Of a stretch of 23,878 nucleotides of DNA, positions 20,410 to 23,878 are shown piece by piece. Both the position numbers and the translations under genes were made by a program. This DNA comes from a virus: positions 1-23,878 of IMG/VR virus record IMGVR_UViG_3300001748_000029. One strand, given 5' to 3'. A model generated the notes under the pieces. That model searched no databases. It was not told the origin of the DNA and was given only the letters and a program-made list of their open reading frames with translations. Numbering within the stretch: the first letter of the stretch is position 1; each line of letters opens with the position of its first letter.

Positions 20410-22797
20410 TTAAAAGTCATTTTCATAATTTCTAATCCCGTTACTATTTCTTATCCATTGAGGTGCTAATTTTATTCCAACAAATTTTGCTTCATTCCCT
20501 CCGAAGATTCTAGGAGTAAATGTAAAACGATTTCCTTTTGCCCCGTAAGCTTTTACTTCTTTCGTAAAGGTTATATTAGCTTTAGGTTTTCTCCCTCCCT
20601 CGGACAAACTCCATTTTTTGTATTCAGCGTATAGTTCCGGAGTTTCAATACTTTCTGTAGGGTCAAGTTCAATACATTGTGATAAGAATCCCTCCACTGA
20701 TGAGTTCTCTGCTCGGTATTCATTTAAGATATTAGTTTGTTCCTGTGTAATTACGAAGTTTTTACTTTCAGCTAAATCACAGGCCCCCTCTATCATCCAG
20801 TTCAGTATTCCAGAAACCTCTTGTGCCAGTAGTCCTACACTGGAGCGGAGTTCGAAGTTGGGATTATCTCTGTAGTTATTCAAGAATTGGATAACACTCA
20901 TTCTCCTTTCTGTAGCCGTTGAAACATCATCTACTCTTGGCATTTGGTTAACAGCAAAGACAAACTTAGCTTGAGGTCGGAATGTAAATTGAGGTTTGTA
21001 TTTAATATCAATTGTTATTAGCTCTCCGGAGATTAGTTTTTTTAATTTATCACTGTGGTAATAATTTCCGGGGACTTCTTCAATAACATTCAACCTCTTT
21101 CCAATCAATCCATGCATTCCAAATTGCCCGTACAAATCCCCTAAATCAATATGAGATGTAGCGTCTTTACCAATTATCATTGCTATGGTGTCAATAAATG
21201 TAGACTTTCCGTTTCCACCATCTCCAATCATAAACAAAGCTCGGTCGTAAAGCATAGAAGAGGATAGAATATACCCGCTAAATTGTTTTATTAGTCTGGT
21301 CTTTTCTTCTTGTTCTGGTCCGGACATCCATTCACTAACACATTTATCCCATATCGGACATTTTGCTTTAGGGTCATAAACAACCGGATATTGTATTAAG
21401 GACACAAAGTCTGGAGTGTGAGGTTTTAGTTCTTTAGTATATATATCTAACAAGCCATTCTTAACATTAATTATATAGCCCCCGTCATTAGAGATTTTAA
21501 GTAATGGGATAATTGATAAAAGACAAGCAACCTTATCGGACACATTCTTTTTTGTCCTATAGCCCCAGAGCATATCTTCATAAAGTCCACTCAGAACCAT
21601 ATCGGATATTTCTTGGTCACTCATCATTTTATACACTCCGTCCTTGTAGTTAAATACTATTCCAATTTCATTCTTTCTGAGGTGAGGGTGCATAGCCAGT
21701 AGTTCTCTTTCGTAGTTTGAAAATCGAACTCTGTCCTGCTCTTTTCTTTTTTTAAGGACTGTAGTGAAAGCAATCTGTATTTTCTGACTCTCTTCCGAAG
21801 ACATATTGTGAGCAATAATCTCATTCTTATAGGAGTAAGTATATCCACTACTAAAAGCACTATTAATAGTGTTCATAATCTCCTGTGCTCCACCTCGTTC
21901 TTTCTCTATACCATGCCACCCAACTTTCTCAATCTGTTCCAAAGCTCTTTTCTTTGTCCAACCAGCTTGTCGCATTAGTGTAGCTGTAATAAGAAGTGCA
22001 TTGTTTCTAGCATTTGGTATAGGTAAACTTTCAGGGTGAGCGGAGATTAGTCTTTTGAAACTATCTCTCTCCTCAATCGGATATTCCTCATTCACTCTAT
22101 CAAAGAAGTTCTTCTTCTCTGCCTCTGCCATTTTCTTAGCTTTGTCGTTAGTAGGTGCTTGTTCCCAATTAAGTTTCTGTTCTACAGTAACTGTTGGAAA
22201 AACTTCCTCTACTTCGTCCAAAGAATAAACATTAGCCTCTCTCTTATATATCCCTTTGATTTTGAAAACACCTTTAGTTCCTTTTTTGTACTGGTCTCCA
22301 GTCTTTTTCCAGTAGAAAGTCTTAGGTACTCTTAAAATTCTAGTTAAATCTTTTACTACTGGGTCAGCTTTCAAAGCTGTAACTATATTTTGTTCAATTT
22401 TTTCCCAACGAGTAATGGATTTTTCCCACTCTTCCGGAGTAATTTCCTCCTTGTAGATTATTTCGTCCAAACACCAATAAATATGATAACCGTTCATTGT
22501 CTCCAATATAAAAGTAGGGTCTAACTTGCTTTTAATTGCTTCTAATTCTTCTAAGTCTTTCCGGCCGTCTATATCTACAAAGAAAGCATTAATATTAGAA
22601 CAATTTTCTTTCTGAGCATTTGGAGCATTCTTAAATCCATTGACAGTAAAATAACTCTCATACCCATTTATATTTAATTCGTCCCTTCTCTCAGAACATG
22701 AAACTGGAGGTCTGCCTTCACCTGTTTGGTCTATGTATCTGTATACATGGTCTGGAAAAAAAGTTAAGAATACATCTTTGTTTTCTTTTTTTTCCAT
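20410..22797 (-). CDS. primase-helicase (AEP-type primase with SF3 helicase)
   Basis: A 795-residue replication initiation protein. Residues 10-165 carry an archaeo-eukaryotic-type primase: FFVDIDG (72-78, catalytic Asp75 and Asp77), ETMNGYHIYW (99-108, His105) and RILRVPKTFYWK (153-164). Residues 245-320 look like a PriCT-type linker (NARNNALLITATLMRQAG). Residues 360-515 resemble the D5_N region. Residues 520-645 are the superfamily 3 helicase: Walker A GDGGNGKST (525-533), Walker B LNVIEEVPG (569-577), sensor-1 FAVNQMP (Asn617), and ATERRMS with the arginine finger. Residues 700-780 form a D5-type C-terminus. It should make primers and unwind the phage origin. It has a 161-base upstream gap containing a long hairpin. 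Confidence 0.9.
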   Translation of the reverse strand: MEKKENKDVFLTFFPDHVYRYIDQTGEGRPPVSCSERRDELNINGYESYFTVNGFKNAPNAQKENCSNINAFFVDIDGRKDLEELEAIKSKLDPTFILETMNGYHIYWCLDEIIYKEEITPEEWEKSITRWEKIEQNIVTALKADPVVKDLTRILRVPKTFYWKKTGDQYKKGTKGVFKIKGIYKREANVYSLDEVEEVFPTVTVEQKLNWEQAPTNDKAKKMAEAEKKNFFDRVNEEYPIEERDSFKRLISAHPESLPIPNARNNALLITATLMRQAGWTKKRALEQIEKVGWHGIEKERGGAQEIMNTINSAFSSGYTYSYKNEIIAHNMSSEESQKIQIAFTTVLKKRKEQDRVRFSNYERELLAMHPHLRKNEIGIVFNYKDGVYKMMSDQEISDMVLSGLYEDMLWGYRTKKNVSDKVACLLSIIPLLKISNDGGYIINVKNGLLDIYTKELKPHTPDFVSLIQYPVVYDPKAKCPIWDKCVSEWMSGPEQEEKTRLIKQFSGYILSSSMLYDRALFMIGDGGNGKSTFIDTIAMIIGKDATSHIDLGDLYGQFGMHGLIGKRLNVIEEVPGNYYHSDKLKKLISGELITIDIKYKPQFTFRPQAKFVFAVNQMPRVDDVSTATERRMSVIQFLNNYRDNPNFELRSSVGLLAQEVSGILNWMIEGACDLAESKNFVITQEQTNILNEYRAENSSVEGFLSQCIELDPTESIETPELYAEYKKWSLSEGGRKPKANITFTKEVKAYGAKGNRFTFTPRIFGGNEAKFVGIKLAPQWIRNSNGIRNYENDF

Positions 22798-22958
22798 AAT
22801 TATTTATCTTAAATTAGAGACAAAATGAAAACAGCCATTGAGCAACATGTAGGAGGTAATGTAACGAACCCCCTAACGAACAATGACTGTTTTCTTCTTG
22901 TCTCCAATATTAAGTTTTGTTTTTTGTTACATTTTTGCATTTGCGTGCTTTTATTTAA
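22798..22958. other. intergenic region between HNH and primase genes
   Basis: A 161-base gap, large by the standards of this operon. It holds the hairpin above. The 50 bases before it (22905-22958) are A/T-rich, and I see no convincing promoter there. A sequence close to the Bacteroidota -7 element (TAATATTG, one base off TAnnTTTG) occurs on the leftward strand just upstream of the hairpin, but no matching upstream box is clear. Confidence 0.5.
22817..22904 (-). promoter_or_regulatory. long leader hairpin upstream of the primase-helicase gene
   Basis: Arms at 22817-22840 and 22881-22904 are inverted repeats. As leftward RNA they give 23 paired positions of 24: two G-U wobbles and one A-A mismatch. 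An inner stem pairs 22850-22856 with 22869-22875 (seven pairs, one G-U), with a 12-base loop. The direct repeat TAACGAAC occurs at 22862-22869 and 22874-22881. The stem ends 20 bases before the primase ATG at 22797. There is no U-run right after the stem, so it is not an ordinary terminator. It may be a structured 5' untranslated leader or a replication origin. Confidence 0.7.
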
Positions 22959-23366
22959 TTAGTTTTTAGAAAAGACATTTTGTTTATGGTGTTCCCTGTG
23001 GTGCTTAAAACACAACCATCTTACTTTTAATTTTTTCCGATAATCATCGTGGTGTGCTTGAGAATTTATATCTCCACAAATTTCACAAGGTTTTCTTTTT
23101 AGTTTTCCATCTCTTATAGCATTTGAGACAGCATTGTTTGCTCTATTCTTTCCTTTATGCTTCAACCTTCTTTTCTTTTGGTACTTTATTTTTTGTTTTT
23201 TCCTTTCTGGTCTTTTATTTCTTTCTACTTCATATTTTACATAATGCTCTTTGTTTATACGGTAATTTTTTTTTACCCTTTTTTTTGTACATTCCTTGCA
23301 CTCACCTTGTACACCATAAAATTCATTATCCTTTTTTTCTTTTTTACAATCTTTACATTTTTTCAT
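22959..23366 (-). CDS. HNH endonuclease
   Basis: A 135-residue protein. An N-terminal zinc ribbon has two CxxC pairs (Cys4/Cys7 and Cys23/Cys26). A long, very basic helical middle (PERKKQKIKYQKKRRLKHKG) follows. The HNH core is CEIC (94-97), AHHDDY (His105/His106), WLC at 117-119 and HHREHH (122-127). This is the arrangement of free-standing phage HNH homing-type enzymes. It lies between SSB and primase-helicase genes and could have inserted there. It may introduce nicks or breaks at a target in competing phages. The start at 23366 has no Shine-Dalgarno. Confidence 0.85.
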   Translation of the reverse strand: MKKCKDCKKEKKDNEFYGVQGECKECTKKRVKKNYRINKEHYVKYEVERNKRPERKKQKIKYQKKRRLKHKGKNRANNAVSNAIRDGKLKRKPCEICGDINSQAHHDDYRKKLKVRWLCFKHHREHHKQNVFSKN

Positions 23367-23397
23367 ATAATAATTGTATCATACCTTTTTAGAAAGG

Positions 23398-23878
23398 TCA
23401 AAAGGGAATGTCGTCTGGATTTATTTCTTCAGCAGGTGCTGGTTCTCCTTGTAATCCTGTTGGTGCTGGAGCTTGTTCTGGTGCAATACCGGCTTCTGCT
23501 GTCTCATTTGCTTTCATAGATTCCAACTTAGGGATAATTGTAGTTTCAACCATATTTTGTAGAAACTCCATTCTTTTAGTATCGTCCCAAACAAGTTCGC
23601 CTTTAACTGTTACTTGCTCCATGTCTGGCATTCCATTTGGATTGTCTTTAGTGTAAGCATGTTTCAAAACATTTCCGTCTTGATTAATAAACAACGAACT
23701 TCTATTTTTCCCGTCTACTTCTTTAACACTAGGTGAAACTTTCATTTCCTTTGTTAAGTCTACATTCGGTAGCATTTTTAGAAACGCTGTGGAAAAACTA
23801 TTACTGTAAGATAATTGTAAGATGTACAATTCTTCTTGGTCTCTGAAACCGAAGTTCCAAGTCTTTCCGTAATTACCG
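23398..23878 (-). CDS. phage single-stranded DNA-binding protein (5' end beyond window)
   Basis: The frame stays open to the window edge, so the true start lies to the right. The visible part begins NYGKTWNFGFRDQEELYILQ, a beta-rich segment like phage OB-fold SSB proteins, followed by LPNVDLTKEMKVSPS and a further strand-rich region. An acidic, Ala/Pro-rich tail ends EEINPDDIPF. The DDIPF tip matches the partner-recruiting C-terminus of bacterial SSB. It should coat ssDNA during replication and recombination and recruit other proteins through that tip. Reading from the TTG at 23829 would truncate the fold and is unlikely. Confidence 0.75.
   Translation of the reverse strand, partial: GNYGKTWNFGFRDQEELYILQLSYSNSFSTAFLKMLPNVDLTKEMKVSPSVKEVDGKNRSSLFINQDGNVLKHAYTKDNPNGMPDMEQVTVKGELVWDDTKRMEFLQNMVETTIIPKLESMKANETAEAGIAPEQAPAPTGLQGEPAPAEEINPDDIPF

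Follow-up and report, generated by a model that had tools for sequence, protein, structure and literature searches.

A candidate structured mRNA leader with a long hairpin and a leader reading frame ahead of a phage primase-helicase gene

Introduction

Replication of I-complex plasmids is reportedly controlled by a stem-loop pseudoknot that acts as a switch, an arrangement attributed to Asano and Mizobuchi (1998). In these plasmids, the replication gene is expressed only if a leader peptide ORF ahead of it is translated (PMC10286972). In phage f1 genes VII-IX, the downstream gene needs the upstream ORF to be translated through a long hairpin (review PMC12548453). Structured RNA and homing endonucleases also meet in T-even phages: a homing endonuclease frame (segG) enters the structured RNA of the T4/RB69 gene 32 mRNA pseudoknot (PMC535899), and RNA hairpins mask the ribosome sites of T-even homing endonucleases themselves (PMC2988022).

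Here we describe an element from an uncultured virus that combines a stem of 30-45 bp, a leader ORF that crosses it and a loop whose sequence co-varies with the leader start, all ahead of a primase-helicase gene. From sequence comparison, we propose that it acts in cis, as a structured leader of a replication-operon mRNA which, with its leader ORF, controls translation of the primase-helicase, a reading to which we assign a probability of roughly 0.55. A limited literature search found no description of such a structured RNA.

Genomic setting

The DNA analysed, hereafter the window, is a viral record from IMG/VR, 23,878 bases long. A replication operon read leftward contains the hairpin, with an SSB-like gene and an HNH-type endonuclease gene on one side and the primase-helicase gene on the other:

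20410..22797, minus strand: primase-helicase gene, the presumed target (795 aa; D5_N and DUF5906 domains)
22959..23366, minus strand: HNH-type endonuclease gene, adjoining the hairpin upstream (135 aa; phrog_2340 endonuclease, E 1.3e-24)
23398-23877: gene ending NPDDIPF, which we take to be SSB-like from a reading of its C-terminus, with no database assignment

The genes of the window have A-rich starts and no Shine-Dalgarno motif. The HNH-type gene is probably a mobile passenger; in other loci, HNH-type ORFs lie on the opposite side of the hairpin. Elsewhere in the window, residues 97-389 of a 951-aa ORF (38-2893) match a glycosyltransferase family, with weak methyltransferase and second glycosyltransferase matches further on, and this ORF is perhaps a fused multi-domain enzyme.

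A long hairpin in the leftward RNA

The hairpin region comprises two nested features:

22808..22914, minus strand: long hairpin in the leader RNA (fold z -10; covariation; G-U:A-C 73:11 family-wide)
22817-22840 and 22881-22904, minus strand: core arms of the hairpin, flanked by weak A-U pairs

The left arm (22817-22840, GAGACAAAATGAAAACAGCCATTG) and the reverse complement of 22881-22904 (GAGACAAGAAGAAAACAGTCATTG) are identical at 21 of 24 positions; the three differences become G-U, A-A and U-G in the leftward RNA, and the apical stem adds one further G-U. The leftward RNA folds at -50.4 kcal/mol, against -19.2 +/- 3.1 for shuffled sequences (z -10.0; none of 200 shuffles was as stable), while the rightward strand of the same region reaches -32.2 (z -5.2). 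Across the whole window, no other 120-nt stretch of the minus strand folds as stably. Weak A-U pairs lengthen it to about 22808-22914. The longest exact run within the stem is 8 bases, which is why an inverted-repeat search with a seed of 9 missed it. The original prediction of a long hairpin is therefore borne out by the arm matches and by the strongest fold on that strand, as is its remark that two of the three outer-arm differences and the single apical-stem difference form G-U pairs in leftward RNA. Its description of the unit is incomplete, in that a complementary motif at 22926-22933 and a leader ORF at 22809-22940 also belong to it. A rho-independent terminator or attenuator was considered and rejected: no U run follows the stem, and no leftward terminator-like site occurs in 22700-23450.

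Relatives and spread of the element

Primase searches yielded 40 related uncultured phage contigs, the window counted. Some of them are near-duplicates; statistics were computed on 28-32 loci and 16 lineage groups drawn by sequence similarity. A comparable hairpin architecture is found in 37 of the 40 contigs; L031 ends before the region, and L027 and L028 carry the primase without the hairpin. Beyond this set, a search of the genome collection gave no primase relative, cultured phages gave only distant primase matches (<60% identity, none spanning 80% of the protein), and the element is generally missing ahead of more distant primases (25-33% identity). Scans of all viral contigs with two strict loop patterns returned six loci with a hairpin, every one preceding this primase, and a seventh, hairpin-less match attributed to chance; matches to a loose loop pattern were mostly chance. 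At the Rfam 15 gathering threshold, no family matched in the window or in 11 relatives, and below threshold there were weak microRNA matches only.

The hairpin is not always adjacent to the primase. In seven loci (L003, L012, L013, L017, L018, L020 and L034) it stands about 480-1,020 nt upstream with an inserted ORF between, and in several of these the inserted ORF is, by inspection, of HNH type. Three GC-richer members (L011, L029 and L053) have another strong hairpin, placed after the element and before the primase start. At about 3110-3250 of L085, whose primase is distantly related (about 31% identity), a long hairpin of similar appearance with the loop GGGGGTAACACCTCC precedes an HNH-like ORF; an upstream partner for this loop is not evident. 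Directly upstream of the hairpin, a tRNA-like element in a stem was seen at L035:4721-4796, where ARAGORN calls a tRNA with an odd anticodon, and at about 4660-4770 of L022, where a T-arm-like GUGGUUCGAUUCCAC was recognized by eye. Since the ARAGORN call was obtained in L035 only, the tRNA-like element was rejected as part of the unit.

Selection on sense-strand structure

Stem sequences vary widely between loci, with pairing retained. In an alignment of the window with seven relatives, 18 of 43 pairs changed on both sides (8.9 in shuffles) and 91% of cells paired (41-51% with the partners slid); one U-G pair, at columns 61-115, is a wobble in all eight aligned sequences. RNAalifold, to which the structure was not supplied, found two-sided changes in 17 of 35 consensus pairs of one subgroup and, in a second clade, in 12 of 33 pairs. 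Family-wide, the stem cells of the sense strand, aligned with all mismatches weighed equally, comprise 769 Watson-Crick, 73 G-U, 11 A-C and 38 other combinations. Looser alignment costs give a G-U:A-C ratio of 76:21, and G-U outnumbers A-C in 15 of the 16 lineage groups, counts to be read with the kinship of the loci in mind and to which strand-biased mutation could also contribute. This excess of G-U among the stem mismatches, together with the compensatory changes, strongly supports selection on sense-strand structure across the family, in line with the proposal that the structure of the leftward strand is what selection acts on. Arms varying without compensation were looked for, and compensatory changes were found instead. 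The selected molecule would be the sense RNA, or that single DNA strand, with RNA as the best reading because the reading frame through the hairpin supports it.

G-T is tolerated also in single-stranded DNA, a point in favour of a replication origin, which had been put forward as a second role for the hairpin: single-stranded sense DNA would fold into the hairpin and recruit the neighbouring primase-helicase. The element is always near a replication gene, and DnaA-box-like sites occur nearby in the L022 group, L014 and L012. However, these sites are few and patchy, with none near the hairpin in the window; GC skew in six contigs of 44-46 kb turns with gene orientation and not at the hairpin; and an origin would not be expected to have an AUG-started frame across its hairpin. 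The origin claim thus finds no support here, and we regard it as very unlikely. L001, L004, L013, L014, L017, L021, L029 and L033 share a TTATCCACA site, matching the DnaA-box consensus, about +3.3 to +5.2 kb downstream of the primase start, and it is possible that the origin is located at these sites rather than at the hairpin.

A long, near-perfect stem between cistrons, free to vary in sequence and kept despite ORF insertion, would also suit an RNase III processing site, where cutting of the duplex would separate the upstream messages (SSB-like, HNH) from that of the primase and set their stability. Such a site would leave both the open frame through the stem and the co-change of the loop with its upstream partner (both described below) unexplained, and we hold this reading to be unlikely.

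The apical loop and its upstream partner

The apical loop carries a motif, X', that is complementary to a segment of 6-11 nt, X, ending 41-79 nt upstream of the loop motif:

22858..22865, minus strand: X' loop motif, GUUACAUU in leftward RNA, complementary to X and varying in step with it across lineages
22926..22933, minus strand: X motif, AAUGUAAC, upstream of the hairpin and within the leader ORF start region

The two co-vary across about 14 lineages, as the following X/X' pairs illustrate:

Window: AAUGUAAC/GUUACAUU
L005: AAUGUAGAA/UUCUACAUU
L014: AUGCAAC/GUUGCAU
L009: UAUGGCACA/UGUGCCAUA
L022: AUACUAC/GUAGUAU
L030: UCGCGAAA/UUUCGCGA
L011: CUUCCAC/GUGGAAG

Loops score 18.8 on average with their own partners, 12.2 with shuffled ones and 12.6 with those of other lineages, and 24 of 32 loci are individually significant for X-X' complementarity (p < 0.05). 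X was looked for upstream of the hairpin and found absent in L008, L026 and L033. A partner of the loop at the primase start scores 11.2 in matched and 11.4 in mismatched loci, with none in the window; a further X-like copy at that start appears specific in L068, L022, L021 and L073 and is not general. Direct masking of the primase start by X' was accordingly rejected as a general mechanism, matched loci being no better than mismatched ones, and kept for a few loci.

A geometry estimate that allows 6 A for each linker nucleotide and 2.8 A for each stem pair lets X contact X' beside the full stem in L004, L009, L017 and L126 only; in the window, by our own estimate, the contact needs the weak outer pairs to open. 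A static H-type pseudoknot alongside the full stem was rejected, the linker being too short in most loci. Because coexistence with the full stem is excluded in most loci, X:X' is an alternative state, a contact in trans, or no base pair at all. In seven loci (L005, L006, L019, L025, L073, L008 and L026), the 5' arm has a further complementary strand upstream of the hairpin (e.g. CUCCCCCGA in L005), a would-be competitor of the 3' arm, in a layout that comprises three strands and resembles a switch.

The co-change of X and X', together with a geometry that bars contact in cis beside the full stem in most loci, would fit a contact in trans, in which the stalked X' pairs with the single-stranded X of another transcript and masks the leader start of that transcript. 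If so, primase output would drop as transcript number climbs, the mRNA acting as its own antisense, and lineage-specific loop/start pairs could act like incompatibility groups between co-infecting phages. Pairing over 6-11 bp between separate mRNAs would need a high concentration, however, and cis alternatives account for the same complementarity; we consider a contact in trans quite unlikely.

A reading frame through the hairpin

A putative leader ORF begins near X and crosses the entire hairpin:

22809..22940, minus strand: putative leader ORF of 43 codons plus stop, spanning the whole hairpin (MQKCNKKQNLILETRRKQSLFVRGFVTLPPTCCSMAVFILSLI)

In 19 of 28 loci an AUG-initiated frame starting near X traverses the hairpin, where shuffled palindromes predict 3.1 +/- 1.6, and frames are open through the loop in 18/37 cases with an AUG at X and 4/47 without (p 4e-5, uncorrected for kinship). 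Open frames are equally common on both strands (18/28 each); because a palindrome offers no independent control, this strand comparison was replaced by the shuffled-palindrome null and the frame comparison. A leader frame of at least 26 codons, starting -19 to +5 nt from X, is present in 24 of 29 loci, and the remaining five form a clade (L005, L006, L019, L025 and L073) with only AUGUAG at X. In the window, the leader ORF ends 12 nt upstream of the primase start. The leader stop falls -15 to +16 nt from the primase AUG in 15 of 20 loci, a proximity partly forced since the hairpin ends close to the primase start, and stop and start overlap as AUGA in L002, L068 and L126 and as UGAUG in L010.

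A functional small protein, with the hairpin merely as its regulator, would explain why the frame is kept open and why the peptides are alike in close pairs such as L017/L020. Peptides are unrelated between lineages, however, and differences by codon position (0.18, 0.22 and 0.25) together with out-of-frame indels give no codon-position signal, so that the openness of the leader frame, rather than the peptide sequence, seems to be kept. A small protein is the least probable of the readings weighed here.

In L013 and L017, the leader frame runs on into the inserted ORF, and in L003 and L020 the first codons of the inserted endonuclease-like ORF are, by inspection, similar to those of the primase. 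These cases suggest the regulated start region as a settling place for inserted HNH elements.

Proposed control of primase translation

The structure, the X/X' complementarity and the open frame are read from the sequences themselves; from them we infer translation of the leader, its coupling to the primase and the direction of control. Ribosomes would initiate at X, at an A-rich start without a Shine-Dalgarno motif, and would melt the hairpin as they translate. Termination of the leader beside the primase start would then hand translation on to the primase. Pairing of X with X' would mask the leader start and so close the leader route to the primase. Because X:X' and the full stem are mutually exclusive in most loci, the pairing most probably belongs to an alternative fold, one that the RNA adopts either during its synthesis, ahead of transcription of the 3' arm, or when the outer stem is kept apart by a ribosome.

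The original prediction held that the hairpin gates primase synthesis. This is plausible, with a different lever: a leader ORF through the hairpin is likelier than direct masking of the primase start; the hairpin persists with an ORF in between (L003, L012, L013, L017 and L020). Those same interposed ORFs also count against the leader-ORF model, as do the AUG-UAG clade (L005/L006/L019/L025/L073), the X-less loci (L008, L026 and L033), the primases without a hairpin (L027 and L028) and the incompatibility of X:X' with the full stem in most loci. The roughly 14 lineages with differing loop/partner pairs offer a natural mutation series for the metering of a replication protein without a Shine-Dalgarno motif.

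Comparison with known systems

Like the hairpins of T-even homing endonucleases, the element is an RNA hairpin beside HNH/GIY endonuclease genes in a phage replication region; unlike them, it is kept also in loci without an endonuclease. The T4/RB69 gene 32 leader is likewise a structured leader controlling translation in a phage replication region, with an endonuclease frame entering the structure. In that leader, a short pseudoknot of about 28 nt ahead of the Ssb gene is the binding site of the phage Ssb itself, whereas here a hairpin of 30-45 bp stands ahead of a primase, as a candidate structure without a known protein ligand. Phage f1 genes VII-IX share an upstream ORF that passes through a long hairpin before the next gene, but gene VII is a real protein gene, and loop-to-upstream complementarity is not described there.

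As in the I-complex (repY-repZ of ColIb-P9; repB-repA of IncB/K/Z), a leader ORF overlaps a structured RNA before a replication gene. In those plasmids, the loop finds its partner close to the start of the initiator itself, in competition with an antisense RNA made from the opposite strand, whereas here the leader start is the loop's general partner, and the search for an antisense promoter gave nothing conspicuous: no sigma-70-like promoter lies at the hairpin and two occur in the region, against 3.0 expected, under a consensus that may not be that of the host. Since the loop is in general matched to the leader start, not to that of the initiator, and no antisense RNA came to light, these comparisons point to leader-ORF translational control in an element that is not a member of the I-complex.
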